From positions 62,001 to 126,000 of the forward strand of contig WSYJ01000178.1 of NCBI GenBank assembly GCA_020186115.1: a stretch of DNA of 64,000 bases. The letters run 5' to 3'. Source of the DNA: Histomonas meleagridis (lineage: Eukaryota > Parabasalia > Tritrichomonadida > Dientamoebidae). A program made the translations under genes and the position numbers. Below are positions 7,868 through 30,263 of this stretch, piece by piece. How positions within the stretch are numbered: position 1 is the first letter of the stretch; the number at the start of each line of letters is the position of its first letter. The notes under the pieces were generated by a model that saw nothing but the letters and a program-made list of their open reading frames with translations, was not told where the DNA came from and did not search any database.

Positions 7868-7873
7868 TCATTA
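7868..7873 (+). promoter_or_regulatory. Initiator-like motif of ankyrin locus 1
   Basis: TCATTA lies about 36 bases upstream of the ATG at 7906 and matches TCAYTW. Its position suggests that this locus once had, or still has, its own promoter. Confidence 0.35.
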
Positions 7874-7905
7874 AATTCACGTATCGTTTGATCTATTTGG
7901 TAAAG

Positions 7906-9207: not shown

Positions 9208-11048
9208 TTTTATATATTATTTTTGTATTAACCTAACATGTAAAAATAATATTTGGAAATTGTTTGAAATATTTAGAACAGCACTTACAGAAGCATCTAG
9301 AAATGGTCATATAGAAATAGTTAAATTACTTCTTGAACAAGAAGGAATTGATGTTAATGCTAAAGGTATTTATTTGTTTGATTTGATATTTATTTTAATA
9401 ATTTAATATTTCAAAATAATGTTTGGAAATTATTTATATTATTTTGGACAGCACTAATGATTGCATCTCGAATGAATCATACGAATATAGTTGAATTACT
9501 TCTTAAACAAGAAGGAATTGATATTAATGCCAAAAATATTTATTTGTTTTATTTAATATTTATTTTAATAATTTTGGATTTCAAAATAATTTTTGAAAAT
9601 TATATATATTATTTTGGACAACACTTATTTGCTCATCTTTTATTGGGAACACAGAAATAGTTAAATTACTTCTTGAACAAGAAGGAATTGATATTAATGT
9701 TAAAAATATTTCTTTGTTTTATTTAATATTTATTTTAACAATTTTATATTTCAAAATAATATTTGGAAATAACTTAAATTATTTTGGACAGCACTTATGA
9801 TAGCATCACAAAATGGTCATATAGAAGTTGTTAAATTACTTCTAAAACAAAAAGGAATTGATATTAATGCTAAAAATAAAAAATATTTTAATAATTTGAT
9901 ATTTTAAAATAATATTCGGAAATTATTTAAAAAATTTAACGCAGCACTTATATGGGCATCTTCTAATGATCATACAGAAACTGTTAGAATACTTCTTGAA
10001 CAAGAAGGTACCGACACTAATATTAAAAATATTGATTTTTTATGTTTAATATTTATTTCTATAAATTGATTTTTTTAAACAATATTTGGAAATTATTTAA
10101 ATTATTTAACACAGCACTTATTTTGGCATCTCAAAATGATAAAATTGAAATAGTTAAATTACTTCTTGAACAAGAAAGTATTGATGTTAACGTTAAAGAT
10201 ATTGATTTGTTTTATTTAACATTTATTTTTCTAATTTAATATTTTTAAAAGTTATTCGGAAATTAAATAATATATTTAGCACATCACTTATAGTTGCGTC
10301 TCATGGTGCCTATATAAATATTGTTCAATTACTTCTTCAACAAAAAGGAATTGATATTAATGATAAAGATATTTATATGTTTTGTTTAATGTTTATCTTA
10401 GTTATTTGATATTTCAAAACAATATTTGGAAATAACTTAAATTATTTTGGACAGCACTTATGATAGCATCTAGATATGGTTATATAGAAATTGTTAAATT
10501 ACTTCTAAAACAAAAAGGAATTGATATTAATGCTAAAAATATTAATTCGTTTTAATTAATATTCATTCTTATAATCTAGAATTTTAAAATAATATTTGAA
10601 AATTATATAAATTATTTAAAACAACACTAATGGAAGTATCTTCAAATGGTCATATAGAAATAGTTAAATTACTTCTTGAACAAAAAGGAATTGATATTAA
10701 TGCCAAAGATATTTATTCTTTTTATTTTATATTTTTTTTGAATCATTCTATGTTTCAAAATAATATTTGGAAAATATTCAAATTATTTAAAACAGCACTT
10801 ATATGGGCATCACAAAATGGTCATATAGAAATCGTTAAATTACTTCTAAAACAAAAAGGAATTGATATCAATGCTAAAAGTATTTTATTATTTTGTTTAA
10901 AATTCATTTTAATAATTTGATATTTCAAAATAATATTTGGAAATTGTTTGAGTTATTTGCAACAGCACTTATATGGGCATTTTCTCATAATAATACAGAA
11001 ATAGTTACATTACTTTCTGAACAAGAAGAAATAGATATCTATGCTTGA
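9208..11048 (+). repeat. Array of 11 ankyrin cassettes at a 170-bp period
   Basis: The Thr-Ala-Leu start of each ankyrin unit (ACA GCA CTT or close variants) falls at 9278, 9448, 9618, 9788, 9941, 10111, 10281, 10451, 10621, 10792 and 10962. Spacings are 170 bp except for one of 153 and one of 171. Each unit codes for about 29 residues of the form TALxxASxxGHIEIVKLLL then EQxGIDINAK, followed by about 83 bp of conserved AT-rich spacer. No unit has an internal stop in the ankyrin frame until a TGA at 11046-11048 in the last one. Since 170 is not a multiple of 3, neighbouring units are out of frame unless the spacer is removed. The array directly follows the head at 7906-9207 and has the same architecture as 26779-30263. 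Confidence 0.85.
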
Positions 11049-11620
11049 AATAGTTATTAAGCGCTTAATTACAAAGCTTGAAACACCCATAATTTATTCA
11101 AATTTTATCATGCAAATCTTAAATAAAGTATCATTAAATTAATTTTATATATATATATTATTGGGCATCAACTAGCCGAAAAAAGGAAATATATTTTTTC
11201 TTACAAAATACTTGATTAAAGAAAATCCTATCCCAAGAATCTTGGACCAAGAGATATTTTAGTTTTGTCAGCATGATCAGGAAATATAAAACATGTTCTA
11301 TATTTATATTAAAGCAAAAAAGAATTGAAATTAATGCAAAAGATAAATATTTTTTTGTTTAAAGTTTATTTAATTAATATTCGTATTTTTCCTTAACATA
11401 ATAAAATCAAATTAATCTTTTATCAATTTATTTGAACAATTGAAAAACATATTATAGAAAATGGAAGATTAATGAATAAATAAACATTATATTATATAAA
11501 TTTTATTTAATGTCATCAAATTTTAAAATAGCATGTGGAGTTTTTTGTAAAAAATCGAAATAGTTGATAAATGGACAAAAGAAGGGGATATAGCGACCGT
11601 TAAATATTGCATAAAATTCA
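11049..11620. other. Intergenic, no gene seen
   Basis: AT-rich DNA after the first ankyrin array. It has a weak ankyrin-spacer-like stretch near 11310-11370 (a GAATTGAAATTAATGC block) that may be a degraded cassette. Nothing else is supported. Confidence 0.4.
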
Positions 11621-11649
11621 ATGCGATGACGGTTATTGTTGGCCTTTTG

Positions 11650-11904
11650 ATGCAAAACGAAAAAGGTGAAGTTGTTGATAGACTAATTCCACGCAAGTGT
11701 GATGCCACACATCGTCTTATCCCACCACACGATCATGCGTCTGTTCAATTCAGAATTGCTAAACTCAATGATGAAGGTCTTCCAACAGGTGAATTCGAAA
11801 CAGTTGTTTTCTCTGGATATCTTCGCAATCTTGGAGAAGCTGACAATGCTCTCAACCGTATTGCAACAGAGAAAGGATTACTTCAAAACGTATATCGTGC
11901 ATAA
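11650..11904 (+). CDS. 40S ribosomal protein eS21
   Basis: An 84-codon small-subunit ribosomal protein. MQNEKGEVVDRLIPRKCDAT matches the eS21 N-terminus (MQNDAGE..D.Y.PRKCSA.), followed by the conserved DHASVQFRIA and GYLRNLGEADNALNRIA blocks. I chose the ATG at 11650 because eS21 normally starts at MQN and is about 83 residues long. An ATG at 11626 would add eight hydrophobic residues, and a further ATG at 11621 is out of frame. The stop overlaps TAAA. Codon use is more balanced than in neighbouring accessory DNA, as expected for a highly expressed gene. Confidence 0.93.
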   Translation: MQNEKGEVVDRLIPRKCDATHRLIPPHDHASVQFRIAKLNDEGLPTGEFETVVFSGYLRNLGEADNALNRIATEKGLLQNVYRA

Positions 11905-12065
11905 AATAAACATAACATTCACTCATATCATTACTTATAATATCGGTTATGCTTACTTTAATTTTCGAAAAAGGAAATGTTTTTTATTTTTTGAAATTGA
12001 TGGTACAAAAAGATTAAAATTGAATCTCATTTAGTTTACAAAAAAAGTGCATAAATGGCCGCGGA

Positions 12066-12070
12066 TCATA
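12066..12070 (+). promoter_or_regulatory. Possible initiator of the IRE1-like gene
   Basis: TCATA lies between an out-of-frame ATG at 12055 and the ATG at 12098. Starting at the A (12068) would give a 30-base leader and skip the upstream ATG. Another candidate, TCATTT, lies near 12028 and would include it. Confidence 0.3.
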
Positions 12071-12097
12071 GGAATACGTTTAAAGATTTACGGTTTG

Positions 12098-14164
12098 ATG
12101 ATGCTTGTGCCCTTGCTTATAGGTCTGGCTTTAGGGTCAGACTCAGAGACACTTGTTGAGCAAGGAACTTCAATTGAGTGGTTTGGCAAATCATGTGACA
12201 GTGGCGTTTTTCTAGGAACTGCTGACGGAACAATTCATTATATCGATAGTGAAACGGGAGAAGTTAAATGGACTTTATCAACAGATGGGAATGTTTATGG
12301 CTCTTCATCTTCAGGTGGTGTATCAACTTTTATTCCTTCTCTTGACGGATACTTATTTTCATATAATCAATATGGTTTTCGTAGATTACCTCTTCCTATT
12401 CGTGACTTGGTTTATTTTTCACCTTTTCGAACTGAGACTGGTGAAGTTTTTACATCTGGTAAAACAACATCAGTATATTTTCTTGATTCTAAAGGAAAAG
12501 TTCTTACTTCATATCGTTCCAACACAACCATCCCAGCGCAAAGTATACAAATTACAGACAAAGATGAGATAAGTATTGTAAGAGTTGACTATGAATTAAA
12601 TGTTTTTAATACAGAATCTGAAATCGTTCGGTTTGCAGAATTTGACATTTACAGTGAATGCGAAAACAAAGGGAGTCAACAAAACTTTGTAAATGTAACC
12701 ACCACTATTAATGGCGCTGTTATCATTTCAATAAATGGAACAGTAAAATCACAGCTCAAAATCAATGGCCTTCCGACTTCTGTCTTTGGGTCCAATGGTA
12801 TCTTCGATTTCAGTGTCAAAAACAATGGACTTCCATTTCCTCGATCCAACATTCAAATCCTTGAATTATATAGTTCTTTTATTGCTGTTCCAAGTCGTCC
12901 TCTTCATATCCCATCGAAATATGAACTTCTTATTTCAGGTCTTCCTCAACTTCCAGGCAAAGTACATGAAAAATCTGATGATGATTTCGATGATCGAAAA
13001 ACTTTTGGTCCAGGTTTTGTAGATGTTGAGCGCACGTTTGCCCAATTCAAACCACTTAGTAATAACATCGATCCATTTCGTCCTGCAAATATAATGGATG
13101 GAGCGTTCACTTTTGCTTACATTCCTAGATTCAATAGAATTCAATACATTTCAATCGGTTTGTGTTTGTTCATAATTTTCATAACTTTACAATTCATTAA
13201 AATCAGTTATAACCACTTAAAGCAAAAGTCATATCTAATCCAAATTGACCCTAATGACATCAATAAGGGTATTTTCAATAACACAGAGTGCGCGTTAATA
13301 CATCTTCCTAAATGTGATACAACCCTTATCCAAGAAATAAGTCTCATCAATGGTATCCCGAAGATTAAGGCTATTGATGAGCTTGATAATGAAGTAATCA
13401 TTGCCTACCAAACTTTTGTACGCTATAGCTTTGATTCCAATTCATTTAATCCAATAACATTTTTGAAATCTGTTTGTGAGATTCTTCAAGTTCTCTTCAA
13501 AAATGGGTTTACTCATGGTTCTATTAGACAAGAACACATTTATATCCAAAATTCGTCATTATTATTAGGTGGATATCAAACTACATTTAAGAAGACCACA
13601 GACCATAGTGATCAAGCCAATGACATCCGTAGTCTTGCCCACATCATTCTTGATGTCTTACATCATGATATCCAAGATTGTTTTTTATCTGATTTATTAA
13701 GCGAGATGCTTAATGACGATGACGATGAAGTTCCCACTCCGACAGAGATCCTTCATCATCCTCTATTTTTCACACCCAAGCAAAAAATTGACATTTATAA
13801 ACGTGCTTCGGACTTTTTGCATAAGCCCGACAGTAACTGCGCCAAACTGTTCGAAAGTGCGTTCCATGACATTGTCGGCGGCTGGTGGACACAGAAAATC
13901 GACATTTTTTTGCTTTCTGACGCCTCGCAGCGAGTTGTGTATAGCGGCGATTCGTTGTGCGACTTGATTCGGCTGATCAGAAACAAGCACGAGCACCCGC
14001 CGGACTCGCTCTCTGACGAGGAGAAGGAAAGGTCAATAGGGAAGAAGGACGACGACGAGAAATTCTTCGCGTACTTCCACGGACTGTTTCCGAACCTGTT
14101 TCTGTACACTTATTACTTCTTGGATAAGTACGACGAGTGTACTAAGGAAGAAAAGGCGGAATAA
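12098..14164 (+). CDS. IRE1-like ER stress sensor: luminal domain, degenerate kinase, KEN RNase
   Basis: A 688-residue type I membrane protein. Residues 1-18 (MMLVPLLIGLALG) look like a signal peptide. The luminal region has IRE1/PQQ-like strands (GVFLGTADGTIHYIDSETG). One membrane segment spans about 348-368. The cytosolic part aligns with IRE1: a kinase-like region (HGSIRQEHIYI in place of HRDxKPxN, LLGGYQ in place of the DFG strand, DIRSLAHIILDVL, PTPTEILHHPLF), then a KEN RNase domain from about residue 560. RNase residues known from human IRE1 are present with exact spacing: Tyr615, Arg628, Asn629, Lys630 and His633 (human Y892, R905, N906, K907, H910). The catalytic Asp residues of the kinase are missing, so it is probably a pseudokinase with an intact RNase. 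I chose ATG 12098; upstream in-frame sequence has no ATG. Confidence 0.88.
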   Translation: MMLVPLLIGLALGSDSETLVEQGTSIEWFGKSCDSGVFLGTADGTIHYIDSETGEVKWTLSTDGNVYGSSSSGGVSTFIPSLDGYLFSYNQYGFRRLPLPIRDLVYFSPFRTETGEVFTSGKTTSVYFLDSKGKVLTSYRSNTTIPAQSIQITDKDEISIVRVDYELNVFNTESEIVRFAEFDIYSECENKGSQQNFVNVTTTINGAVIISINGTVKSQLKINGLPTSVFGSNGIFDFSVKNNGLPFPRSNIQILELYSSFIAVPSRPLHIPSKYELLISGLPQLPGKVHEKSDDDFDDRKTFGPGFVDVERTFAQFKPLSNNIDPFRPANIMDGAFTFAYIPRFNRIQYISIGLCLFIIFITLQFIKISYNHLKQKSYLIQIDPNDINKGIFNNTECALIHLPKCDTTLIQEISLINGIPKIKAIDELDNEVIIAYQTFVRYSFDSNSFNPITFLKSVCEILQVLFKNGFTHGSIRQEHIYIQNSSLLLGGYQTTFKKTTDHSDQANDIRSLAHIILDVLHHDIQDCFLSDLLSEMLNDDDDEVPTPTEILHHPLFFTPKQKIDIYKRASDFLHKPDSNCAKLFESAFHDIVGGWWTQKIDIFLLSDASQRVVYSGDSLCDLIRLIRNKHEHPPDSLSDEEKERSIGKKDDDEKFFAYFHGLFPNLFLYTYYFLDKYDECTKEEKAE

Positions 14165-14509
14165 ATTGAGTTGTTGTAGTTAATAAACAGATTCTGTATG
14201 AAGTTGACGTTCTTAAAGATTTCAATTGAAATGAAAAATATCAACAAAGAAAATGAATACTCTTTTGTTGTCATTATTTCTTCTGTTTTACGTTTCAATT
14301 CATTTTTGTAATTGGAAAATTTTTGATTTTTCATTGATTGTAAATGATTACATTCTCAAACTAGCTGATTCAGGTATATAAAAACTTCTTAATAAAAAAT
14401 ATTTCTTTCAATTGAGATCAAAGAATTTGAAAGTTGAATTATATTGTCAAAAATAAAGTTTATAATTAAAATGAATTATATATAATACAATTCCCAGATA
14501 ACAATTTAT
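14165..14509. other. Convergent intergenic region
   Basis: The space between the 3' ends of the IRE1-like and DOCK-like genes. No gene is seen; the minus-strand ORF across 14113-14334 overlaps the IRE1 end and looks like a shadow. Confidence 0.5.
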
Positions 14510-17500
14510 TCATTCAGAAAATTCGATGCCATCCTCCATCGGATCGTCTAAGCACGAATACGATTCCTTTTCCATCGGTTCCAATCCAAATTGCTCAGTG
14601 AAGTCACCGACCATTGTCTCCAAAAACGGAAGCAGCTGCTCGTACGCTTGTTTTGTCTGCAAGTTTTCGACCGCTCTTCTGTAAACATTCACACATCTGA
14701 TTGCAGCTGTTCTAACACCATTAGCCATTTTCATAGCATCTTTTTCATTTGTTTCTTTAAATTTACTTAGTAAAGAAACAAATGAATCAGTTCCTTTAAG
14801 ATTTGAGGACAATACATCTGAAATACGATGAATATCCAAAGTAAATAAACCTTCTTTTGGCTTAATTGCTTTATTTTGATGATTATCAGGATATGGGAAC
14901 CAAATTTCGAATTCGTCTGCAGTTTTGTTTAACAATTCTATCGTCTTATTGTACTTTTGCGTAACGTATTCATTTTCAGTCATTATAACGGTTTTCGATG
15001 ACTTCACTTTTGATGACCATTTATAACGTGGTAATGCTTCATTAGTTAAATACTCAACATATTGATATTTATTATCATTATCAATAGCTGTTGGAATAGT
15101 TCTAAATTTATACCAAGTATGAGGGAATTCTTGAGTTCTTGTATCATTTTCAATAACAGGAGTTAGATGGACGATACAAACGGTTTCCTTGTCACATTTT
15201 TCTGAATGTTTTTTGCAGACGTTAATAGTTTTACCGTTAAAGCAGTTGTATCTATTCAACAAAGGAATGAATGCATGTTCAGCAGATTTGTAGTTTGAGA
15301 TTACGAAAATTTCTTGTGTCTTAGTGCCATTTTCTTCGACTAAATAAAATGAAATTGGTAAGTCATAATCTTTCGAAGATTTTGTTTGAATTTTACCAAT
15401 AGATTCGCCCAAATTTTTCATTGTTTCAGACATTTTACTGAAATTACGCGTTGATTGATTTAATCTTAATTGTAATGAATATAAAGGTCTTAATGAGTAA
15501 AACATAAAAGCTTTTTCTCCTATTTGAATTGCTCTTTGTAATTCATCCATTAACAAATCAATAGTAAAATCGGATAATAAAATTTGCGCTGATTCATCTT
15601 CAATTAAATTCTTAAATTCGATTTTTGCTTCATTTAAAACACTTGGAACAAATGAAAAATCATTTTTAACATCTAATGGATATTGATATTGAGCGTTTTG
15701 TATTGAATTCTTTAAAGGCTGCACGATTAATTGATGAAGTTTCTTGTAATTAGTTGAAGGAATATGATTAATTTCTTGAATTACTGATTCTATTAATGTA
15801 ACAATATGTAATTGCGTAATAAATGCTGATGTATAATGTTCAAATTCTTGATTAACATTAACAATTTGTTTTAACCATTTAAGTCTCATTGATGGAATAG
15901 TTTTATATTGATCAGCTATAATCATAAGGTTTTGACATTTAGTATCTGGTGGCAAATCAGATTTCTTTTGTGTTTCAACAATATCAGAAATTGTTTTCGC
16001 AGCATAAATTCGACCTTGAAGTAGACGTACAAATGTTGGGTTTATATTGACAAAATATTTATTAAGAATATTTTTAATACAACCTAATAAAAGTTTATAT
16101 ATTGGTATTTCTTCAAGTCTTAAATTAAGTAAAATAGATGTAAGAGAATCCATCATATCAACAGATGATATAATGACTGTACCTGTATGATCAAAATCAC
16201 ATTTAAATATCGAAATTAATAACGATGCACCAAAACATCTTGTGTTATGTTGTGTAAATGTTAATAATGATAATGCCCATGTAACTAATTCTCTTTGACA
16301 TGGATATTTTTGAGCAATTTGGACACAAAAATTATAAAATTGTTTTATATTATCTTTTGGTTGAAATTTGTTATATAAATTCTTAAGAATTAATACAACA
16401 TAAGATAAATGTTGTCCTAAGTTATTTATCCAAATAAGTAATATGTTTAATATGTTTTTAGTAAGTAAATCATAATATGTAAGTAAAAGATGTGGTTTAT
16501 TATATGTCGGCTTCACTTCTTCTAATGATTTATTGGTGGTATTAATCATTGAATTTAATAATTTTAAGTAATGTAATTGATAAGAATTACCACAAGTAGA
16601 AAACATTTTTAAGATTTGTGAAGATTCCGATTTAGAAAATATGAAAAGTATAACAGGAATTAATTTCGTTTGCATTTCACGTGTTATTTGTGTATTAAAT
16701 GGTAACAAAAATAAATCTATTAATGGCTGTAAAATATACGCTAATTTTTTATTTATTTCATCTGGTGCATTTTCAAAAGTTACAACAAGTTGAAACAAAA
16801 AATCAATTTCTATTTCTAATGTTTTTTCTTTATTCTTTTTAGTATTATCTAATGATTGATAAAATGCATTATAAATTAATGACATAACTGGTAAAAATGG
16901 AACGATTTCAATATTATTTGGAAATGATTTTACTGACAAAGCTAAATTCGCAAAATAAAATTGATTACCTGCAAATGGCAATAAAAAATCAAATTGCAAA
17001 TATGTGAAATATATTTTAAATGAAGCATATTTCTTCATTTTCTTCATTGTATCCAAATATTCGAAAATTAAATTATTTACGTCTTTAAATAATAAATATT
17101 TTGGCATTAACATACATATGAAATTCGCAAGAGATTCATTTAAGGTAATTGCATTTTGCGGTGGTTTTGGTGATTCCATTTTAGAAGGACTACTTACACG
17201 AAATGATACTGCTCTTGTTCTTTCTGAGCAGCTATCTTCTTGATAAGATCTATTACAACATCTTCCTATAATTCGAGGTATAAGTTTCAAAAATTCAATT
17301 AAATCAGGTTTAGAGAAAGTTGAATCTGGTAAAGAAATAGATACAAGTAAAATATCAAAAATTATTGGTAATGTAAATGTAATTTGTTTTAAATAATATC
17401 TGATGTTTTCTTGTGAAGCATCAAAGTTTTCTTGATTATTCTTCATGATTTGTGACGTAGATTTACATATTTTATCAATAAAATTAGGCCCAAATAAATT

Positions 17501-19949: not shown

Positions 19950-21056
19950 ATGTTTGATACCAAATTTAACGAGAACGACCTCCGTGCATGTGTCGAAACT
20001 CCATATCATGGAGAAGATCATAGCATCTGCATGCGCTTATTCTATTCCAAATTTTGTGATAAAGTTTGCACTTTTTTCCCATTAACATGTTCTGCAAATT
20101 TAATCACAACAATTGGGTTTGTATTTGAACTTATTTCATTTATCCTTACATTTGTTTACTCAAAAGGAATATCAGAACCACTCCCAAGTTGGGTTTGCGT
20201 TATAAACGGACTTTTCCTCTTTATCTATCAGACATGCGACAATGTTGATGGAAGACAAGCCAGAAGGACACATTCTTCATCTGCTATAGGTCAATTCTTT
20301 GATCATGCAGTTGATGCATTTGTAGATGTATTTGAAATGCTTAAACTTGCAGCCACACTTCAAATGGGAGCAAACATGAAAAGCTTCTTAATGACATTTG
20401 TAATTGCATTTGGTTATTGCATTGCCTTTTGGAATCAATATGTTCACAATCTTATGTATTTAGGTTTCCTCAATTTCTGTATTGAAGGACTTTTTATCTT
20501 TGAAATCACACATATTCTTGTTAGCATTGATCCCAATTTTATAGCACTCAAAAACAACATATTTTATCAATTGCTTTTAGTTGGTGGAACAGCTGTCACA
20601 GTTGTTTACACAGTATTCTACATGTTCATCAAAGGCTTTGTCCAAAAGAAGCTTTACACCACAACAATGGCATTTTTGCCAATGTTTACGACAACGGTTT
20701 TGACAGTATTGAATATCATCAACGATAGCAGCGTTGTAAACAACATTTACTTCACATTCGGAACAGCACTTACAATTATGTATAACACACAACGCCTTGT
20801 TATCACACATATCACCGGTCGTCGCCCAACAAGACTTTTCGATTGGGCAACCATCTGCTACTGGCTCGGAATTGTCAGTTACCTCATACCACAGATGCAC
20901 CACTTCAAACAGTACTGGTTCTTCTATTCATTGTCAATTGCGTGCGGAATGCTTATCTTCGACTACCAAACACTTACAAATCTCTCAAAGGGACTCGAGT
21001 TACCTATTTTCTCAATGCCTCCAAAAATCCTTGAGGAGTTGAAGAAGAGTAAATAA
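19950..21056 (+). CDS. CDP-alcohol phosphotransferase (ethanolamine/choline phosphotransferase)
   Basis: A 368-residue polytopic membrane enzyme of the last step of the Kennedy pathway, joining CDP-ethanolamine or CDP-choline to diacylglycerol. The family motif DGx2ARx8Gx3Dx3D is complete: Asp100-Gly101, Ala104-Arg105, Gly114, Asp118 and Asp122. About eight hydrophobic segments follow or flank it (GFVFELISFILTFVY, VCVINGLFLFIYQ and others), as in yeast EPT1/CPT1. The last catalytic Asp is the metal-binding base. The enzyme should sit in the ER. The ATG at 19950 is the first in frame; the four codons upstream lack an ATG. The choice between ethanolamine and choline cannot be made from sequence. 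The stop overlaps TAAA. Confidence 0.92.
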   Translation: MFDTKFNENDLRACVETPYHGEDHSICMRLFYSKFCDKVCTFFPLTCSANLITTIGFVFELISFILTFVYSKGISEPLPSWVCVINGLFLFIYQTCDNVDGRQARRTHSSSAIGQFFDHAVDAFVDVFEMLKLAATLQMGANMKSFLMTFVIAFGYCIAFWNQYVHNLMYLGFLNFCIEGLFIFEITHILVSIDPNFIALKNNIFYQLLLVGGTAVTVVYTVFYMFIKGFVQKKLYTTTMAFLPMFTTTVLTVLNIINDSSVVNNIYFTFGTALTIMYNTQRLVITHITGRRPTRLFDWATICYWLGIVSYLIPQMHHFKQYWFFYSLSIACGMLIFDYQTLTNLSKGLELPIFSMPPKILEELKKSK

Positions 21057-21189
21057 ACTTTCTCTTTTTTGAATTGGGTGAAGTTTTATGAATGATAATG
21101 ATATGAATGACAATAATTGTTGTTGAATTTCTAAAATTTGAAAAGACAAGTATAATATTAACCATCTGAATAATTTGAAAAGAATAGAA

Positions 21190-21262
21190 GCCTCTGTAGC
21201 ATAGTGGTTATTGCGTGTGCCTCGTAAGCGCAAGGTCGCCGGTCCGACTCCGGTCAGGGGCA
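21190..21262 (+). tRNA. tRNA-Thr (anticodon CGT)
   Basis: The sequence folds as a full cloverleaf. The acceptor stem is GCCTCTG with CAGGGGC (one T-G pair). The anticodon stem TGTGC/GCGCA encloses the loop CTCGTAA with anticodon CGT, reading ACG. The T stem GCCGG/CCGGT encloses TCCGACT, and the discriminator base is A at 21262. It has no intron and no encoded CCA. The T-loop starts TCC rather than the usual TTC, a small oddity. A T-run follows as terminator. Confidence 0.93.
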
Positions 21263-21264
21263 AC

Positions 21265-21273
21265 TTTTTTTTT
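21265..21273 (+). terminator. Pol III T-run after tRNA-Thr
   Basis: Nine consecutive T start three bases after the mature tRNA end, the normal RNA polymerase III stop signal. Confidence 0.85.
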
Positions 21274-21580
21274 CAATAGATGATTGAAAGGGTGTTAAAG
21301 AATAGAAGTCTTCCCTTTTGTTGTAAAAAATGTTTGTTTTTTTTTTTTCCATCAGAATTGATATATCGACATGATGTAACAAGCAATTAATGCAAATCGT
21401 TTTCTCAATTGTAATTTAAATTTTAATAATTAGGTTTTCGATTAACTCTAGCATTGTGAATGCACTGAGGGCGGGTTCCTGTGTGATCATAGAGGAAACC
21501 TCATAGATTGCTTTATCTTCTTTTTAGGAGATCGATTATTCAATATACAAGACGTTAAGTTAAATGGTTTATTTGCAGCT
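21274..21580. other. Intergenic with a short GC-rich hairpin
   Basis: Mostly AT-rich, but 21462-21510 is unusually GC-rich and includes TTCCT (21476-21480) and AGGAA (21492-21496) forming a 5-bp stem around a 11-base loop, with GG/CC just outside. It could be a structured leader or small RNA of unknown type. No coding evidence is seen. Confidence 0.3.
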
Positions 21581-23200
21581 ATGAATGAAACAACACCAAA
21601 CCAAGAATTAAATGACTACTTAGAAAACTTAAAAAAAATTCAAAACCAAGAAAATTCTGCTACTGATAATGCTGCTAGTGTTCTCGCATATCTGTTGTCT
21701 TTTACTCAAACAATTTTCTTAAATTTAATCAATTTCCAAAAATTTTTCCCAAAAGATTTTATATCCACAGCTCGCCAATATTTTAATTTGAATTTACAGG
21801 AAAGTCCCCAATTAGAGGAAACAGTTCGCCAAATAAGAATTATTCAGCAACTAATCAATCAAATTTATCAATACACAACAACAAACGTAAAAAACAGTAC
21901 TATATCTGAAGCAGTAAAAAACATATTTGTTTTATTTGATGATTTTATTGAATCTAGAAATAACTTCATTTTAGATTGTATCTTAAAATTTTCAATCTTA
22001 CCAAAGACAGAAATCAATGACATTAGTTTTTTTAAACCTAACGATGATGATGGACTCAAAATGACAAAAAATAATTTTCAAATTCTTCAATCAGAAATCG
22101 GGAATGATCGAAATTTACAACAATTTTATACTGACATCGGCCGTACTTTTACTGAATTAAATTACTTTCATGGCGATTTAAAAATTTCAGCAATGTTAAA
22201 TAATGATTTCCGACATTTCCCACCAATAGATGTAATTCGTGAAAATCCATTTTTCATACAAATGCAATCATATCATTTAAAGTCAACGCCATTTGTACGA
22301 ATAGGAATTCAACAATCGGAAGAACTTTTTTCCAATTTTTTTAATGAACTTTTATCTGTTACTAAATCACTTGATATATTAAATCGAATTCCATTAGTTG
22401 AATTAGCACTTGGCCATGACAAAGAAACCAAAATAACAAAACAAAAGCTGAAATTATTTTCCAAAATTATAAATTATAGTGAACCCGCATTTTTCCAAAA
22501 CAATTTTTATGAATATCAATCATTAAATTATTATGCAAAAGCATTAAAATCACTTGAAGACATTAAAGAAAATTATGATATTAATGTTATTAATAATGAC
22601 ATTAAAATATTTTTAGATATGAAGAATCAAATTATAAATGAAATCGAATATATCGAAAATTTAAATGATAAAATTAAAACTGAAATTGATAATATAAATA
22701 AATTAAAAGAAAATAATAAACAAAATGATGAAATATATAATAAAATCGAATATTTAAAACAACAATGTTTAAGTTTTGAGAAAACTATAAAAGATCAAAA
22801 ACAATATTTAAAAGATAGAATACAAAATACTATAAAAGAATTTAAAAATAATGTTTCAGAACTAACAAATATTGGAAATATTTCATTTGTTCCAAAGTAT
22901 TTCGAAGTTATAACAAAAAATAATTTCGAAGACAAAACAAAAGTAATTTATTTAAACGAAAGATTGAATTATTATAAAGAAATAAATATAAAATTAAAAG
23001 AAAATATTACAAAAGATAAAAATATAATAAAAAATTATTGCCCTTTATGCTATAAGAGAAAAAGAAATGTTATAATAACTGAATGCGGCCATACATTTTG
23101 TAAAGAATGTTTGGAAACACTCGTTAAAGACGAAAAGATAAAATGCCCAAATTGTGGTGCATTGTCAAATAGTAGCGAGATACGCCAAATTAATTGGTGA
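21581..23200 (+). CDS. RING finger E3 ligase, Bre1-like
   Basis: A 539-residue protein with a long, highly charged helical and coiled-coil body (strongest at about 345-470) and a C-terminal RING at about 487-527: CPLC, then CGHTFCKEC and CPNC, a C3HC4 arrangement, ending 12 residues later in IRQINW. A C-terminal RING after long coiled coils, with CPLCYKRKRNVIITECGHTF spacing, resembles Bre1/RNF20, the ligase that ubiquitinates histone H2B during transcription elongation. Spt5 is also in this window, but that is not operon evidence. The match rests mainly on the RING and overall layout, so another coiled-coil RING ligase is possible. The ATG at 21581 is the first in frame. Confidence 0.7.
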   Translation: MNETTPNQELNDYLENLKKIQNQENSATDNAASVLAYLLSFTQTIFLNLINFQKFFPKDFISTARQYFNLNLQESPQLEETVRQIRIIQQLINQIYQYTTTNVKNSTISEAVKNIFVLFDDFIESRNNFILDCILKFSILPKTEINDISFFKPNDDDGLKMTKNNFQILQSEIGNDRNLQQFYTDIGRTFTELNYFHGDLKISAMLNNDFRHFPPIDVIRENPFFIQMQSYHLKSTPFVRIGIQQSEELFSNFFNELLSVTKSLDILNRIPLVELALGHDKETKITKQKLKLFSKIINYSEPAFFQNNFYEYQSLNYYAKALKSLEDIKENYDINVINNDIKIFLDMKNQIINEIEYIENLNDKIKTEIDNINKLKENNKQNDEIYNKIEYLKQQCLSFEKTIKDQKQYLKDRIQNTIKEFKNNVSELTNIGNISFVPKYFEVITKNNFEDKTKVIYLNERLNYYKEINIKLKENITKDKNIIKNYCPLCYKRKRNVIITECGHTFCKECLETLVKDEKIKCPNCGALSNSSEIRQINW

Positions 23201-23588
23201 ATTTTGTTTGTTTGTAAAAAAATTTTGTTTGAATTTTGTTGTTATATTATAAATAATATATTATAAAATATGTTTCCAGAGAATGTCCTATTTTTCTGTT
23301 TAAATAATAAAAAATTCACGTTTAGATCCTTGTTCAAATGTGTATATAAAGATTACACCTGAAAAATATGAAAAGTTTTGCACAACTTCAATTATTAATA
23401 TCATGTTGAACAAAACTGAAATTAGTTTAAATGGCGGTGAAAATATTCCATAATTTTGTGAATATTCAAGTAACTTTAATTTAATTGATTTTCTTTTCTT
23501 CCAAAACTAATTAACAAAAATATTATTTTTAAGAAAACAAACATTTATTAAATCATATATATAAACAAATGGCATTTAATCAAATATG
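23201..23588. other. Convergent intergenic region
   Basis: AT-rich space between the RING gene and the lectin gene, which converge. No ORF or RNA gene is seen. Confidence 0.5.
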
Positions 23589-24773
23589 TTAATTTTTTTT
23601 CAGCATATTATAAAGCACAAAAGCAAAAACTAAAAACATTTCGACAAATGACATTACAATGATAACATTCGGCAAACTGAATTTCTTCACATTTTTATTT
23701 TGTTGCTTCAAATCATTGTACAGTCCGTATCCCTTAAGCACTCCGTAATATAATTCCGACTCTATGGAGTGAACATCTTCTTTGAACTCAGCAAAATCCT
23801 TTGAAATAGAATGCTTTAGTTCGCTTAATGCATTTTCGGTGTAATTTAATTGATTTTGGATTTCGATGCGAAGTGATTTCGTTTGCTTTGTGGTTAAAAC
23901 ATAGCGACGCTGCCACTTATCAGAAAAATTAAGTAATTGGTTGGATATTGTGTCGCATGCTTCGTTAACAGTGCAAAAATTTTCAGAAAGTTTAAAAACT
24001 TCATCAATACATTGAATCACATCAAGTGAGTTTGGCGTATAATATGGCCTGAGAAATTGTTCTGCTGTTTCATTAAATTGTTGTAAGTTGCTATCCTTTT
24101 GAATATGTGTCTGTGAATGATTAAAATTAATTTTCGAAGATTCAATCGTTATTTGGTCGATGTAAACCGGATCTTTACTTTGACCAGTGATACTAAGCCA
24201 GCCTCTGCGCATAGAAGAATATTTATCCGTGGTTATGTGAAATGAGTTTACCGATTTTTCGTCAAGATTTAATTTGATGAAAAATTGTGATGAATTATAT
24301 GTGAGTTCAATTTGTATGACTGGTGTGGTAATGGGGTATGTGTATTTAGGATGGAAAGATAATGGATTATAATCTTCTTTACCATCACTTTCACGAGTTT
24401 CAATCTGGAAATGTGTTGAATTATAATTACATAAAATAGCAAAACCATAAAATTTGCTCGGACCACCAAATATGGTACCATTTACACCAAAATTTTTGGT
24501 TACCCAAAAACCAAGATTCGATGATGTTGACGATTCTTGAAATTTTATTTTAAAAATTGTTTTCCATGAATCAGCTGGAAGTCTATTTATAAGCCAAGCA
24601 TATCCAGTTGGATTATTCTTTGAATTTATAATCTGAAATTGATTACTAATTTTGTCAAAATAAGCACTTCCACCAAATTCCCAATCACCATTATATTTGG
24701 AAGAATTAGGAATGAAATCCTTTTCTAAATTAGATTTTTTAAAATTTATGAAGAATAAAAATATAAAAAACAT
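23589..24773 (-). CDS. L-type (legume-like) lectin membrane protein, cargo-receptor type
   Basis: A 394-residue type I membrane protein. The N-terminus (MFFIFLFFINF) is a signal peptide. Residues about 20-215 look like an L-type lectin beta-sandwich of the ERGIC-53/VIP36 group: GDWEFGGSAYFD, GYAWLINRLPADSW, GFWVTKNFG and GFAILCNYNSTHFQIETRE. A helical stalk follows, then a membrane segment at about 367-388 and a very short cytosolic tail ending LKKN. The tail is dibasic, but the lysines sit at -3 and -2 rather than the canonical KKXX positions. Such lectins bind high-mannose glycans and carry glycoproteins between ER and Golgi. The start is divergent from uL24, about 100 bp apart. Confidence 0.78.
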   Translation of the reverse strand: MFFIFLFFINFKKSNLEKDFIPNSSKYNGDWEFGGSAYFDKISNQFQIINSKNNPTGYAWLINRLPADSWKTIFKIKFQESSTSSNLGFWVTKNFGVNGTIFGGPSKFYGFAILCNYNSTHFQIETRESDGKEDYNPLSFHPKYTYPITTPVIQIELTYNSSQFFIKLNLDEKSVNSFHITTDKYSSMRRGWLSITGQSKDPVYIDQITIESSKINFNHSQTHIQKDSNLQQFNETAEQFLRPYYTPNSLDVIQCIDEVFKLSENFCTVNEACDTISNQLLNFSDKWQRRYVLTTKQTKSLRIEIQNQLNYTENALSELKHSISKDFAEFKEDVHSIESELYYGVLKGYGLYNDLKQQNKNVKKFSLPNVIIVMSFVEMFLVFAFVLYNMLKKN

Positions 24774-24840
24774 GATTATTTTTGGGATTTAAGCTAAATT
24801 CATTTCAAATAACATGTCTCTTGAATGTCAGTGATGTGAA

Positions 24841-24873
24841 ATGGAGGTTTTGACAGCCATGGTTGCCTTTTAA
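24841..24873 (+). other. Ten-codon upstream ORF before uL24
   Basis: ATG GAG through TTT TAA encodes ten residues (MEVLTAMVAF) and ends one base before the uL24 ATG. If the transcript starts upstream of 24841, this would be an upstream ORF; if not, it is chance. The transcript start is unknown. Confidence 0.3.
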
Positions 24874-24874
24874 C

Positions 24875-25285
24875 ATGAAGACAAATCCATTTGTTTCCTC
24901 TCAAGCTCGTAAAGTACGCAAGGCTTTCTTCAATGCAACAAAGGAGGAAAAGCATATTGCAATGAGTGCTCCTCTTAGCAAGGATTTACAAAAACAATAT
25001 GGAATTAAGCGTCTTCCAATCCGCCGTGATGATGAAGTTGAAGTTGTTCGTGGTCAGATGAAGAAGCGTACAGGTCGTGTTGTTGCAGTAAAACTTTCAA
25101 CAATGCGTATCAATGTTGAATCAGTTACCAAACAAAAGATCAGCAACGAAACAGTCTTCATTCCAATTCATCCATCAAATGTCGTTATCACAAAGATCAA
25201 GATGGACAAATACCGCAAGAATCTCATCGAAAAGAAGCGTCAAAATCGTGAAAAGGCCCTTCAAAAACTTGGTCGTGCAAAGTAA
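24875..25285 (+). CDS. 60S ribosomal protein uL24 (L26)
   Basis: A 136-residue large-subunit ribosomal protein. MKTNPFVSSQARKVRKAFFN, then SAPLSKDLQKQYGIKRLPIR and DDEVEVVRGQMKKRTGRVV, match eukaryotic L26 and include the KOW motif. The C-terminal tail is lysine and arginine rich (KKRQNREKALQKLGRAK). The length is normal for the family. The ATG at 24875 gives the expected MK start. The stop overlaps TAAA. Confidence 0.96.
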   Translation: MKTNPFVSSQARKVRKAFFNATKEEKHIAMSAPLSKDLQKQYGIKRLPIRRDDEVEVVRGQMKKRTGRVVAVKLSTMRINVESVTKQKISNETVFIPIHPSNVVITKIKMDKYRKNLIEKKRQNREKALQKLGRAK

Positions 25286-25541
25286 ACTTTCGATTGATTT
25301 CTTAGCAAATTCTTTTTTAAAGCAAGTATTGTTGTTTCTTATTTATGCTCATTGTGATGTTCAATATTAATTCATTAAAAATTCCAATATCGATATTATC
25401 AATTGATCCCATAATTTAGTTAAAGATACAGTAAATAATTACACAATTTTTTACTTATGTAAGAAAATGTTTTAACTCCAATGCTTTTTTTTTAAATTAG
25501 TAAAATTGCATATAGTTTTTTTTGGAGATAAATGAGTTTTT

Positions 25542-26360
25542 CTAGAAATTAAAACATTGTTTTTTTTGTAGGGTGTGGGACTGAAGTAATTGAACGATTT
25601 CGGTGTATCCTTTTTTATTTGCTATCTTGAGGGCTCTACGAAAAAAAATTAATATAACAAGAAAAAATTGTTTGATGCGCCTCCAGTATTTACATTGATT
25701 TCATCTTGTTCTAGGAGAAATTTAACTATTTGAGTGTTACCTTTTGAAAATGCTTTAACAAGTGCTGTTTCGAATAATTTGAATAATTTCCAAATATTAT
25801 TTTGAAATTTCAAATTTTGATATTAAATATTAAATAAAATAATTTAATATTTTTAGCATTAATATCAATTCCTTCTTGTTCAAGGAGCAATTGAACTAAT
25901 TCCATTTGACCTCTAGCTGTCAACATAAGTGCTGTATAAAATAATTTGAATAATTTTCAAATATTATTTTGAAATATCAAATTATTAAAATAAATATTAA
26001 ATAAAACAAATAAATATCTATAGTATTAATATCAATTCCTTTTTGTTCAAGAAGTGTTTTAACGATTTCCATATGATTAGCTATAGATGCCTCAATAAGT
26101 GCTGTTCTAAATAATTTAAATAATTTCCAAATATTATTTTGAAATATAAAATTATTAAAATAAATATTAAATAAAACAAATAAATATTTTTAGCATTAAT
26201 ATCAATTCCTTCTTGTTCAAGAAGTAATTTAACAGTATCTATATGACCATTTTCAGATGCATGCATAAGTGCTGTATAAAATCATATAAATAATTTCCAA
26301 ATATTATTTTGAAATCCAAAACAATAAAATTAAATATTAAATAAAACAAATATATTAAAT
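25542..26360 (-). repeat. Minus-strand array of five ankyrin cassettes, 5'-truncated, with a terminal repeat
   Basis: Read on the minus strand, Thr-Ala-Leu anchors lie at 26275, 26105, 25935 and 25768 (spacings 170, 170 and 167), then a final unit with Arg-Ala-Leu at 25637 (spacing 131). The final unit, RALKIANKKGYTEIVQLLQ, runs to a stop at 25542-25544 and looks like a genuine C-terminal repeat. All five units are stop-free. Upstream there is only spacer sequence to about 26360 and no N-terminal region, so the locus is 5'-truncated. It lies head to head with the intact ankyrin gene at 26779. The last spacer contains a possible 23-nt GT-AG intron (25636-25658). Confidence 0.8.
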
Positions 26361-26764
26361 ATGTAATTAATTGTTATTGGGAAACAAGTAGAAGATAAAA
26401 GTTGTAATGTTAATTCAATAGAAGACTCAAGGGTTTTAGATTTAAGCCAAATATAATTCATTCAAGATCGATGAAAGCTTGATATTTTATTTTTCTTTTC
26501 TCCAGCATTGGGTTGTAAGCAAAACCGCCAAATTTGTGATATTTACTTTGGATAAATTCTTTGTAAATGGAATTCAGGCGAGCAAACAACACTTTTCTTT
26601 ATGATAACCGCTAAACCTCTCGGCCAAGTATCGAGTTTTTTGTGATCATTGTTCTAACCCCCAACCAAATATCAATTTAAGGTGAAATTCCGACAAACCT
26701 TTTGAATTTGCTTTTTCCAAGACTCATTTTATAATCGTCTTTATATTCAAAATCAACAAAATTT
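26361..26764. other. Divergent intergenic between two ankyrin loci
   Basis: No ORF is supported. A TCATTT initiator-like motif lies near 26765, about 13 bases before the ATG of the plus-strand ankyrin gene. Confidence 0.4.
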
Positions 26765-26778
26765 TCATTTCCTTGAAT

Positions 26779-27954
26779 ATGATGGAGGCTACCAAAAAAC
26801 TTTTAATATCATTAAGGAACATTATTTTTAACTTAAACGAAAAAAATATTGAAGGTTCAACTCAAGCAACAATGGAGCTATATGAAAATAATAGCTTTTT
26901 ATACTCTTTAAATCTAACTATTATACAATCAATATATTCTGCTTTTTCATCTCAAAGGCGAGAAGCAAATATTTATATAGATTATTTACAAAACATCGAA
27001 AAAAAGGAAAAAGAGAAAGAAAATCAATTAAATAATTCAAATATAATTCAAATGTTTAGTATTTATTTATTAAGATTAGAAACAAATGAGTCAAATTACT
27101 TACTTGAAAATTTAATTAAACGAGATTTCATAAAGCAAGATTTTATTAATAATAAAAGAACTTTATGGTTTGCACATCTACAAGGAATTATTAAAATCAG
27201 GAATTTGTATCTGAAACCACCATATTATGATAAATTTATTTCTAATATATCACGACTTTCGAAAGGTGATTGGTCTCTTCATAAGAAATATATAACAAAA
27301 GGAATTAATCCATTAAAACTTGCAAAAATTCTTCGATATGATGATTTTAAACGACTTCAAGAAATATCATCACAAACGAATTTTGATTTTAATCAAAAGA
27401 TTGAACCATCACTTTATGAAACATATTCATTTATTAATAAAGAAAATGTTTCATTAGTTGATTATGCAGCATTTTTCGGATCAATCCAATGCTTTAAATA
27501 CTTATTATTAAATGAAGCAAGTATTAAGAAGACATTAAAATATGCAATTGCAGGAGGAAACTTAGAAATCATTCATTTATGTGAACAAAACCATTCATTT
27601 TTTGATGAAACTTACGAAACAGCAATTGAATTTCATCGAAATGATATTTTTCATTATTTTTATGAAAACCAAATCATTAAAATTCTAGACTTTGAATTAT
27701 TAGGAATTAAATGTATTCTTCATAATAACTTTGAGATTTTCTTTTATTTAGAGAATGAAGGAATGATAATAAATAATAAAATCATTCATAAAATAGCAAA
27801 AACAGGAAATACATTTTTGATTCAATATTTACTAGAAATATATCTAATCCCATTCGATATTTTGATATCTGCAAAAATATCTGAAAACATTGAACTTATT
27901 AAATTACTTATACCACATAAAGGAATTAATTTAAATCAAGCGAATATTCATTAA
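26779..27954 (+). CDS. Ankyrin protein, N-terminal DUF3447-like region
   Basis: An intact 391-codon ORF from ATG 26779 (a second ATG follows at 26782). It is the undamaged paralogue of 7906-9207. The N-terminal 180 residues are charged and helical. Then comes the ankyrin-like head: LSKGDWSLHKKYITKGINP, SSQTNFDFNQKIEPSLYE, DYAAFFGSIQCFKYLLL and AIAGGNLEIIHLCEQNHSFF, resembling DUF3447, a Trichomonas ankyrin-associated domain. The frame ends in a first degenerate repeat (NIELIKLLIPHKGINLN) and a TAA at 27952-27954. Ankyrin cassettes continue for another 2.3 kb, so the real product may be much longer if the spacers are removed. Proteins of this kind are very abundant in trichomonads and mostly of unknown function. 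Confidence 0.75.
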   Translation: MMEATKKLLISLRNIIFNLNEKNIEGSTQATMELYENNSFLYSLNLTIIQSIYSAFSSQRREANIYIDYLQNIEKKEKEKENQLNNSNIIQMFSIYLLRLETNESNYLLENLIKRDFIKQDFINNKRTLWFAHLQGIIKIRNLYLKPPYYDKFISNISRLSKGDWSLHKKYITKGINPLKLAKILRYDDFKRLQEISSQTNFDFNQKIEPSLYETYSFINKENVSLVDYAAFFGSIQCFKYLLLNEASIKKTLKYAIAGGNLEIIHLCEQNHSFFDETYETAIEFHRNDIFHYFYENQIIKILDFELLGIKCILHNNFEIFFYLENEGMIINNKIIHKIAKTGNTFLIQYLLEIYLIPFDILISAKISENIELIKLLIPHKGINLNQANIH

Positions 27955-30263
27955 GTTTATATAAAATTTGTATCATAAACTTTGGGTTTCAGGTTTGTAT
28001 TTGGAATTTATTTGGTTAATTTCGTATAATACTTGTCTGGGCTGCTGCTAATGGTTTTATTGATATTGTAAACTTAATTGTTAAACAAGAAGGAATTGAT
28101 ATAAATGCTAAAGATATTTTTCATGTGTTTTATGCTGTTTATTTTATGTATTTTATATTTTAATTAATCGTTTGGTATTAAAATCTGTTATTTAATACTG
28201 CATTTATTGCTGCTGCACAAAGTGGAAATTTGGATATCATGAAAATACTAATTGAACAAAAAGATATTGATATCAATGCAATAAATAATGTATGTTTCAT
28301 TTAATACATGTTTCATTTTTTGGTTTAGATTTTATTTAATACATTCCAAACAGCACTTTTGATAGCAACACAAAAGCATAATATTGAAATGATTCAATTT
28401 CTTGTTCAACAGAAAGGAATTGATCTAAATATTAAAGATATTAATTTTTTAGATTTCAAATTAATTTTTTTGATTTAATGTCTAAAATATTTATTTGGAG
28501 TTTTATCAATTTTTTTTATTCTGCACTTATTTATGCATCTCAAGATGGTAATATACAAATTGTTCAAATCCTTATTGAACAAGATGGAATTAATATTAAT
28601 ATAAAAGATATTTAATAGTTGAATTTAATATTGATTTTAATAATTTGCTATTTAAAATTCATATTTGGAGTTTATATATAATGAATTTGACTGCATTTTT
28701 ATATGCAACTTTAAAAGGTTATATTGAAATCTTTAAATTACTTCTTAAACAAGAAAAAATTGATATCAATATAAAAAATATTTGTTTGTTTTATTTAATA
28801 TTTTTTTATTTAATATCAAATATGTTTTAATAATATGGAAAATATTTTAAATATTTAAAACAGCACTTATGTATGCATCTCATAAAGGACATATTGAAAT
28901 TCTTAAGATACTTCTTGAACAACGAATAGATATTAATGATAAAGATATTCATTTGTTTTATAAGATTTTTCTTTAAATTTCTTTATTTTTGATTGATTAA
29001 TTTGGAAATCATTTCAAATATTTAAAACAGCACTTATTTATGCTTCTCAAAGAGGACTCTATGAAGTAGTCAAAGTACTTCTTGAACAAGAAGGAATTGA
29101 TATTAATTTAAAAGATATTTATTTGTTATATTTAATATTAATTCTGATAGTTTTGGATTTATTGAAATAATTTGATGTTTAGCTTTATTATATTGGACAC
29201 CATTAATGAGAGCAACTTCAAGTGGTCATTATGAAGTTGTTAAATTACTACTGGAACAAAAAGATATTGATATCAATTTGAAAAATCTTTTTTTGTTTAT
29301 TTTTATGTTAATTAAAATTAATTGATATATATTTTTATATTTTGGTATTTATATTAATCATGCAATACAGCACTTATGTATACGGCATTTTATAATCATC
29401 CACAAATAACTGAATTACTTCTTGAACAAAAAGAAACTGATATTAATACAAAAGAAATATATTTGTTTTACTTAATGTTAATTTCCATTATTTTTTATTT
29501 AAATTTAATATTTGGAATAAATTTAAATTATGTTGGACACCACTTATAGCAGCATCTTTTAATAATTGCATTAATGTTGTTAAAGTACTTCTTAAACATA
29601 ACGAAATTAATGTTAATGCTAAAGATATTTATAAATCTTTTTTTATGTTTTCTAAAATCATAAAATGTTTCAAATTTATATTTGGAAATTATTGAAATAA
29701 TTTGAAACAGCGCTTATGCATGCATCGAGAAAATGTTGTATTAACTTAGTTAAAATACTTCTTGAACAAAATGGAATTGAAATCAATGAAAAGAATATTA
29801 ATTTTTCTAAATTCATGTATCATTTAATAATTTTTTATTTATATAAATAAATTGAAATTTGTTTATTTTATTCGAAACAGCACTTATGATTGCAGCACAA
29901 AATAATAACTATGAAATAGTTAATTTACTTCTTGGTCAAAAAGGTATTGATATTAATGCTAAAAATGTTTTTATATTTGATTTGAAATTTTTTTTATTAA
30001 TTTTATGTATATATTAAAAGTTTGATATTTATTTTAGTTATTCGAAACAGCACTTATGATTGCGTCTCAAAAAGGCTATATAGACATCGTTAAATTACTT
30101 ATTGAACATAAAAGAATTGATATAAATGCTAAAAACTTTTATATTCTAAACTTACTCACGGAGCTTGTTTTCTTAATTTCTTACTGCATGGGACTTTGCA
30201 CTTTTAAATAGACATCATGAAATTGTTGAATTACTTCAAGATTTCATGGAATTTTCCTCATGA
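27955..30263 (+). repeat. Array of 14 ankyrin cassettes at a 170-bp period, with a terminal repeat and stop
   Basis: Anchors (Thr-Ala-Leu codons or variants) lie at 28026, 28198, 28350, 28520, 28690, 28860, 29027, 29197, 29367, 29537, 29707, 29877, 30047 and 30183. Ten of the spacings are exactly 170; the others are 172, 152, 167 and 136. Units differ at many codons but all keep an open ankyrin frame, and the second codon varies as Ala or Pro (TAL or TPL), as in real ankyrin repeats. The last unit (TAWDFALLNRHHEIVELLQ) ends at a TGA at 30261-30263, like a true C-terminus. Spacers of about 83 bp are AT-rich and similar to each other. This is the 3' continuation of the gene at 26779. Confidence 0.82.

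Follow-up and report, generated by a model that had tools for sequence, protein, structure and literature searches.

The stretch of Histomonas meleagridis DNA analysed here is a window of 64,000 nucleotides (positions 62001-126000 of contig C112, in an assembly of 43.28 Mb and 121 contigs; size and G+C content accord with the 43 Mb and 28% published for the genome, PMC8529796). P0138, a protein that bears the name Histomonas meleagridis at NCBI, is matched in this genome at 100% over 428 amino acids; P0132, another protein of that name, has a best match of just 69% (99 of 2719 candidates scored), which we take as a difference of copy or strain, the family being very large. The window carries three arrays of ankyrin exons separated by spacers built of 17-base elements. 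The gene of array 1 begins with a plus-strand N-terminal region (DUF3447/ankyrin, 7858..9207) that lies in two open pieces, is split by an in-frame TAA at 8605-8607 and runs into the first element. Array 1 itself (9109..11048, plus strand) holds 12 ankyrin exons of about 30 codons each, the last already disrupted by a TGA at 11046-11048; with these two stops this copy may be decaying, whereas array 3 shows none in the 12 exons counted. Array 2 (25772..26278, minus strand; repeat period to 26352) is a fragment with exons at 26189-26278, 26019-26108 and 25852-25938, a degenerate extra repeat below 25772 and no N-terminal domain in view. The plus-strand gene of array 3 has its N-terminal region (DUF3447/ankyrin, 26686..27954) in a single open frame that terminates within the first element, and the array (27853..30133) comprises 14 ankyrin exons and 13 spacers of old, diverged elements. 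Tandem Repeats Finder reported period 170 at all three (9180-11058, 25760-26352 and 28523-29139). A first-pass annotation had described a spacer common to the three arrays that interrupts ankyrin genes and is old and shared. We confirm this description, and the spacer family extends genome-wide (178 DNA matches in 40 scored candidates of 1874); window positions 9520-9860, spacers included, have a best non-self match that is 89% identical.

A typical spacer consists of four AT-rich 17-base elements (68 bases) with single triplets between them, giving a period of 20. The layout is GAT-ATTTATTTGTTTTATTT-AAT-ATTTATTTTAATAATTT-TAT-ATTTCAAAATAATATTT-GGA-AATTATTTAAATTATTT-AAA-ACAGCACTT, in which the first four bracketed sequences are the modal forms of elements 1 to 4. 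The triplets and ACAGCACTT translate to Asp-Asn-Tyr-Gly-Lys (positions D, c1, c2, G and X), then Thr-Ala-Leu, which is the ankyrin loop. The motifs pointed out in the first-pass annotation belong to elements 1 to 4, which it had treated as one 71-base block that would leave 33 residues per repeat; we find instead four 17-mers plus three inner codons, and 34 residues. Each spacer holds several inserts rather than one intron, so the borders drawn in that annotation, its 33-residue repeat and its search for a single AG were aimed at the wrong structure.

Using exon profiles, we dissected the window together with 27 further stretches of this genome, which yielded 33 arrays with at least three exons; this dissection and a search for elements outside arrays covered 285 kb of one assembly. 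Most of the sequences are from arrays that scored best in a spacer DNA search, so the sample leans to the consensus. Triplet and selection counts were restricted to spacers at exact 170-base spacing with a standard exon, that is, 201 or 200 unique units drawn from the 276-277 spacers counted before duplicate removal. In a first set, 170 of 216 neighbouring exon pairs were exactly 170 bases apart, and this spacing persists despite strong spacer divergence (10 of 13 in window array 3). A position profile of 156 unique units located the most variable spacer positions at 108 and 110, 128-130 and 168-170, with mostly GGA at 148-150; variable sites thus recur every 20 bases with 17-base blocks between them. 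In a parse of 276 spacers from the 33 arrays, 1068 of 1086 elements measured 17 bases and 18 had odd lengths; the window accounted for 103 of 106, two degenerate gaps at array ends being skipped. Scanning the preferred length from 12 to 23 gave a score of 5576 for 17, followed by 2067 for 12 and 2026 for 13, and 260 of 276 spacers could be parsed with 17-mers alone, compared with 192 when 13 was the sole length and no more than 19 with each of the remaining lengths. Only 2 of the 1119 intercalated codons in the length parse were stops, although the parse set no stop penalty.

Most spacers of the window conform to four elements of 17 bases. Those of array 1 (plus strand) lie at 9368..9444 (codons GAT AAT GGA), 9538..9614 (AAT TGG GAA), 9708..9784 (AAT TAT GGA), 10031..10107, 10201..10277, 10371..10447, 10541..10617 and 10882..10958. 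The remaining three are 9199..9274 (lengths 17, 16, 17 and 17; codons ATT AAC GGA), 10711..10788 (17, 18, 17 and 17) and 9881..9937, which has three 17-mers and lacks element 1 while retaining the codons that flanked it. All three spacers of array 2 (minus strand) are regular: 26109..26185, in which every element is modal, 25939..26015 and 25772..25848. The regular spacers of array 3 (plus strand) are 27946..28022 (N K W G R), 28440..28516 (D Q N G Y), 28610..28686, 28780..28856, 29117..29193, 29287..29363, 29457..29533, 29627..29703, 29797..29873 and 29967..30043; the spacer at 28116..28193 has lengths 18, 17, 17 and 17, and that at 28290..28346 has three 17-mers. For the 77-base spacer at 28947..29023 the parse set two elements adjacent to each other, and by eye a fixed 20-base register (GAT, TAT, GGA) fits too.

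Departures from the 170-base unit mostly follow the same arithmetic. Units of 153 bases lack one 17-mer and retain the codons, units of 150 bases lack one 17-mer and one codon, and units of 173 bases mostly have one additional codon. Four elements per spacer is the norm; 3, 5, 7 and 11 occur too, and the three loops of one array contain 11, 7 and 5 elements, each of 17 bases. Elements appear to multiply by tandem duplication along with their codon. With a repeating unit of 17 + 3 bases, each unit gained or lost would make the loop exactly one residue longer or shorter and leave the frame intact, so that loops could lengthen. A second element type, ATATGTTTTAATAATTT, forms period-20 runs at L044 7261-7990, C9:164144-164947, C1:922096-923926 and C3:15536-16218; some loops in L044 contain as many as 11 intercalated codons. 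Two irregular cases were also seen. The 171-base units of L052 (C72:132700-133500) read open by chance because element 3 has one extra A, and the near-identical duplicate genes L033 and L034 (C88) differ by a 169-base unit that occurs in one copy only and shifts the frame of one exon.

The triplets behave as codons. Among the 603 inner triplets of 201 unique units there are 0 stops where column composition predicts 18.5, and their phase has the highest entropy of the 20; one other phase likewise has 0 stops, yet 0.0 are expected there. Gly is encoded by the third inner triplet in 165 of 201 units. The first exon codon after the spacer comes in 25 codon types and is never a stop (0 of 201, 25.1 expected); the TTTTGG, TTTAA and ATTTAG variants that the first-pass annotation weighed as a 3' excision signal are simply this codon. 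The same behaviour holds genome-wide. The pattern element 2-NNN-element 3, with slightly shorter flanks, occurs 1088 times and never with TAA, TGA or TAG, and the reversed-pattern control has 0 matches. About 90 stops would be expected from the column frequencies of 82 sampled sites, and 54% of the sampled triplets are one substitution away from a stop. Mutation to a stop in the middle triplet is plainly not tolerated.

Spacing was examined with the gap left free. Elements 2 and 3, with a gap of 0-25 allowed, gave 985 matches genome-wide (reversed control 0), and among 100 of these listed, 98 had a gap of 3 bases and 2 of 6 bases. Elements 1 and 2 gave 778 matches (control 0), with a gap of 3 in 100 of 100 listed. 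Self-pairs of ATATGTTTTAATAATTT numbered 1490 (reversed control 0) and lie in period-20 runs; only two of the matches listed have a gap other than 3 or 23, and 23 fits 3 + 17 + 3. As 82 of 276 sampled spacers match the element 2-NNN-element 3 pattern, a rough extrapolation, if the sample is typical, gives some 3,700 spacers and on the order of ten thousand elements in the genome.

Two simple readings of the spacer were tried and rejected. In 181 of 201 units, translation of an intact spacer would run into a stop in element 3 that lies in the frame of the codon before it; most units cannot be read through because of this stop and because 17 is not a multiple of 3. A single intron of 68, 71 or 77 bases was discarded on the behaviour of the triplets and on most of the Pfam scores given below.

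The exon reading frame has been under selection after element insertion. In window array 3, where elements differ on average by 29% from the modal forms, 372 codons (12 exons) contain 0 stops; neutral simulation from modal codons produced 20.4 (minimum 6 in 2000 runs), and 11.3 at half the rate. Three stops occur in the 6200 exon codons of 200 unique units, one of them in the X codon. In 15 of the 31 codon columns, no more than 4% of units differ at the second codon position; element positions vary in 7.7% on average. The elements change at about the rate of fourfold sites or slightly faster (A-T changes, 0.036 vs 0.026 in younger arrays and 0.161 vs 0.115 in older arrays), and the constraint that we claim concerns their length and, modestly, their ends only. 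For length, the 18 odd values among 1086 elements accompany some 1,400 substitutions (if 7.7% holds throughout), and duplicated DNA without long open frames (L033 vs L034) shows 30 gap openings per 316 mismatches in five alignments that overlap in part and have open stretches of at most 67 amino acids. For the ends, the first-pass annotation had proposed a profile of the spacers as a check for conserved borders. The profile bears this out for T in older arrays, which is changed at 154 of 1610 end sites vs 207 of 1330 middle sites (p = 1e-6), and does not do so for A sites in older arrays or for A and T sites in younger arrays, where ends and middles do not differ significantly. In the most diverged old-array elements (75 of 216), a purine stands first in 94%, T stands second in 88% and T or C stands last in 96%. 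The first-pass annotation named as its refutation spacers that evolve with no conserved ends, together with no junction reads; the first of these is contradicted, though modestly, by the better conservation of T at the ends.

These counts bear on the idea that the arrays are untranslated, the protein ending at the first element and the array being a 3' region or a decaying relic that remembers past selection. The N-terminal frames of window arrays 1 and 3, and those of the relatives P0122, P0128 and P0130, do meet an in-frame stop on entering the first spacer, the N-terminal frame of array 1 has its own TAA, and no spliced protein was among the best 120 public protein matches. Such a relic would nevertheless have to account for middle triplets free of stops across the genome, for the intact codons of array 3 despite the divergence of its elements, and for the rarity of stops in the 200 units. 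Several arrays also close with a normal C-terminal cap (e.g., VKLLNEKGAN) and a stop. We consider this explanation quite unlikely.

When the 17-mers are left out, the exons join through D-[NKDE]-[YDNGW]-G-x-TAL (Asp-x-x-Gly-x-Thr-Ala-Leu) into a 34-residue repeat. The joined reading of L034, 340 residues long, scored 423 bits with Ank_2, 269 with Ank, 271 with Ank_4, 208 with Ank_5 and 195 with Ank_3, compared with 357, 245, 239, 164 and 182 bits, respectively, for the best of five other phases; ten phases were decoded and six scored, the four unscored ones holding stop codons. L050 in its 34-residue reading is likewise recognised by the Pfam ankyrin profiles (Ank 325, Ank_2 325 and Ank_4 304 bits), and it surpasses the 31- and 33-residue units on Ank, Ank_3, Ank_4, Ank_5 and Ank_KRIT1. 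This gene (C83:37357-47300, minus strand, about 48 elements) looks whole: its N-terminal frame is open, 11 of its spacers have 170 bases and a twelfth was identified by eye, and it closes with SALDLSTQNKRKDIK and a stop. The loop has the same length in an uninterrupted paralog of the same genome (NDKDFFNRTPL, NAVDDIDRSAL) and in the uninterrupted Tritrichomonas foetus protein P0152 (QKDLNNDTAL, IKDYFKYTSL). Matches to roughly the first 200 residues of P0132, the first half of the N-terminal domain, contain an internal stop in 3 of 99 cases and none in the other 96 (best 99 of 2719 candidates scored). Very probably the triplets are translated and the 17-mers are removed or skipped.

An ordinary GT-AG intron per spacer, with the borders drawn in the first-pass annotation, could draw on the spacers that have a GT and an AG near those borders and on Ank_2, where the 33-residue unit of L050 tops the 34-residue unit (343 vs 325). 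A frame-keeping GT...AG pair near both borders is present in only 22 of 201 whole spacers, however, the 33-residue unit is lower on four of five general ankyrin models, and such an intron would discard triplets that are never found as stops. This explanation is extremely improbable.

The ends of the elements match no splicing signal. They tend to RT...ATTY, with RTWTRT at the 5' end. GT starts 41 of 804 elements, AG ends 0 of 804, and 0 of 804 have GT-AG ends, likewise under any product-preserving slide; the first-pass conclusion that consistent GT-AG ends are lacking and that any excision signal is non-standard therefore stands. Its suggestion of a trichomonad-type 3' signal near the ends does not: the CTAAC branch motif occurs in 1 of 804 elements, CTAACACACAG has 11 occurrences genome-wide vs 4 in the reversed control, and GTATGTN{4,40}CTAACACACAG has 0 genome-wide. 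As to a HAC1/XBP1-type or self-splicing border structure, the one consensus spacer that was folded showed no fold beyond shuffles (z of -0.33 and -0.35 at two lengths).

Ribosomal bypassing, in which the mRNA would retain the 17-mers and ribosomes would jump across every one of them, would suit the near-constant length and the codon phase. It is known from multi-site bypassing in yeast mitochondria (byps) and from phage T4 gene 60, which share with the elements short inserts within coding sequence that must not be decoded. The elements differ from those systems in that they lie in nuclear genes, the last element triplet matches the preceding codon, as take-off and landing sites would, in only 11 of 804 cases, and the folding just described found no hairpin. 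Four hops per 80 bases, and dozens per gene, would be needed, which leaves bypassing unlikely.

The inserts cut up many ankyrin-repeat genes. We favour, with moderate confidence, the explanation that the message lacks the 17-mers, most probably because they are removed from the RNA one by one. A process acting on RNA that measures 17 bases is favoured by elimination of read-through, ordinary splicing and bypassing. Each inter-repeat spacer would be a run of 17-base elements with single codons of the ankyrin beta-hairpin loop between them, and successive excision would join D^c1^c2^G^X into a continuous 34-residue repeat. Recognition would draw on the fixed length of 17, on RTW...ATTY at the ends and, probably, on a context that recurs every 20 bases. 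The fuller proposal is a ruler-type removal of 17-base RNA elements without GT-AG, separated by one-codon exons, dozens per gene and about ten thousand per genome, with a 20-base unit that generates loop length and sequence diversity; this we put forward only tentatively, judging it slightly more apt to fail than to hold. A much altered spliceosome may be the remover, as RTWTRT resembles GTATGT in all but the first base.

Several observations weigh against removal of the 17-mers. The absence of GT-AG ends is one, and a spliceosome would be hard put to handle four 17-base introns around 3-base exons. Leaving the length free makes the parse ambiguous (17 bases in 505 elements, 12 in 397 and 13 in 246) because ATTT recurs inside elements; the period-20 triplets are stronger evidence than the element-length parse. 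Array copies share ancestry, so the 1088 genome-wide sites are not independent trials. The overall ratio of nonsynonymous to synonymous polymorphism (pN/pS) in exons is near 1, because the loop and concave-surface codons (X, 5, 8, 12, c1 and c2) are hypervariable. Another L034 phase is higher on the special model Ank_KRIT1 (115.5 vs 92.2), and besides the Ank_2 score above, the 31- and 33-residue units of L050 are both higher on ANK_LRRK2. Longer matches to P0138, which reach the first-spacer region, hold stops in 59 of 98 cases by our own count, in which stop positions are not localised. Finally, protein searches with decoded arrays returned, among the best 120 rows, most of them nameless, no Histomonas-named row and none above 60% identity.

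Hypervariable X, 5, 8, 12, c1 and c2 codons beside conserved core codons are the pattern of variable ankyrin binding surfaces. Hypervariable loop codons, along with the uninterrupted ankyrin paralogs of the same genome, would also accord with events at the DNA level, in which rearrangement yields an uninterrupted version and the arrays serve as donors or as a germline form. The paralog is just 60% identical to the idealised repeat, unlike a cleaned array copy, and we know of no trichomonad with a second, edited genome. We regard DNA-level removal or cassette use as very unlikely.

Comparison with known systems gives partial likenesses. The trichomonad 5' splice site motif is GTATGT, which RTWTRT loosely resembles, and trichomonad introns, like the elements, are very short T-rich interruptions of parabasalid protein genes. 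Spliceosomal introns of Trichomonas vaginalis measure 56-196 nucleotides (type A) or 23-25 nucleotides (type B), with one intron per gene in this species and at most two in T. stableri (PMC12316389). The H. meleagridis elements, in contrast, are 17 rather than 23 or more bases long, have no AG and no CTAAC, and occur many per gene with one-codon exons. The short introns of Stentor and Bigelowiella are GT-AG introns. They are given as the shortest known spliceosomal introns in the same source, at 15 nucleotides in Stentor and 18 in Bigelowiella (PMC12316389), and thus belong to the length class of the elements, which differ in having no GT-AG ends and in being spaced by one codon. With introner elements and the internal eliminated sequences of ciliates, each of which is one sequence family interrupting genes very many times, the 17-mers share just this property; in the sequence read they occur only in ankyrin arrays, and their flanking codons vary by site. 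Insertion into many unrelated genes, as for introners, was not seen: outside ankyrin arrays the 285 kb showed no excess of 17-base joins (29, the same as for 8, 11, 14 and 20), which also counts against our explanation. We know of no intron, bypass element or eliminated sequence with fixed 17-base inserts, no GT-AG and single codons between them, and no title or abstract in the literature searched, whose coverage excludes preprints and most subscription journals, describes such elements.

If junction reads confirmed removal, the elements would represent a new kind of gene interruption and a new way of restoring the message. The genome paper reports introns in 5.2-5.7% of H. meleagridis genes, at most one each (PMC8529796), and a transcript set (PRJNA935845) and mass spectra are named in PMC10063853. 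Removal could explain how gene models would miss most of a large ankyrin family in this organism, because N-terminal frames stop at the first element. It would also connect, in a way that can be tested, the repeat unit of one codon and one insert with binding loops that change fast and stay in frame. If true, the arrangement would let a large protein family of this poultry parasite generate diversity of loop length and sequence from within its own genes.

The arrangement is probably older than H. meleagridis and present in other species, to judge from their proteins. The Tritrichomonas ankyrin proteins P0139, P0140 (DUF3447) and P0152 (without it) resemble the interrupted genes in having a related N-terminal region and ankyrin repeats, and P0152 differs in that its loop codons, equal in number, are contiguous. 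Short ENA contigs, probably metagenomes, encode relatives of the N-terminal domain that are 38-49% identical. Among them, P0122 (...DINAKDI), P0128 and P0130 terminate at or just after the Asp codon. P0121 reads through the spacer and, by eye, has Gly exactly 20 codons after Asp, which fits three 17-mers plus codons; P0136 has, also by eye, Cys at that position and Gly one codon later, which proves nothing. Elsewhere in the window, positions 32676-34073 hold a gene for a BspA-type leucine-rich repeat protein (PF13306).

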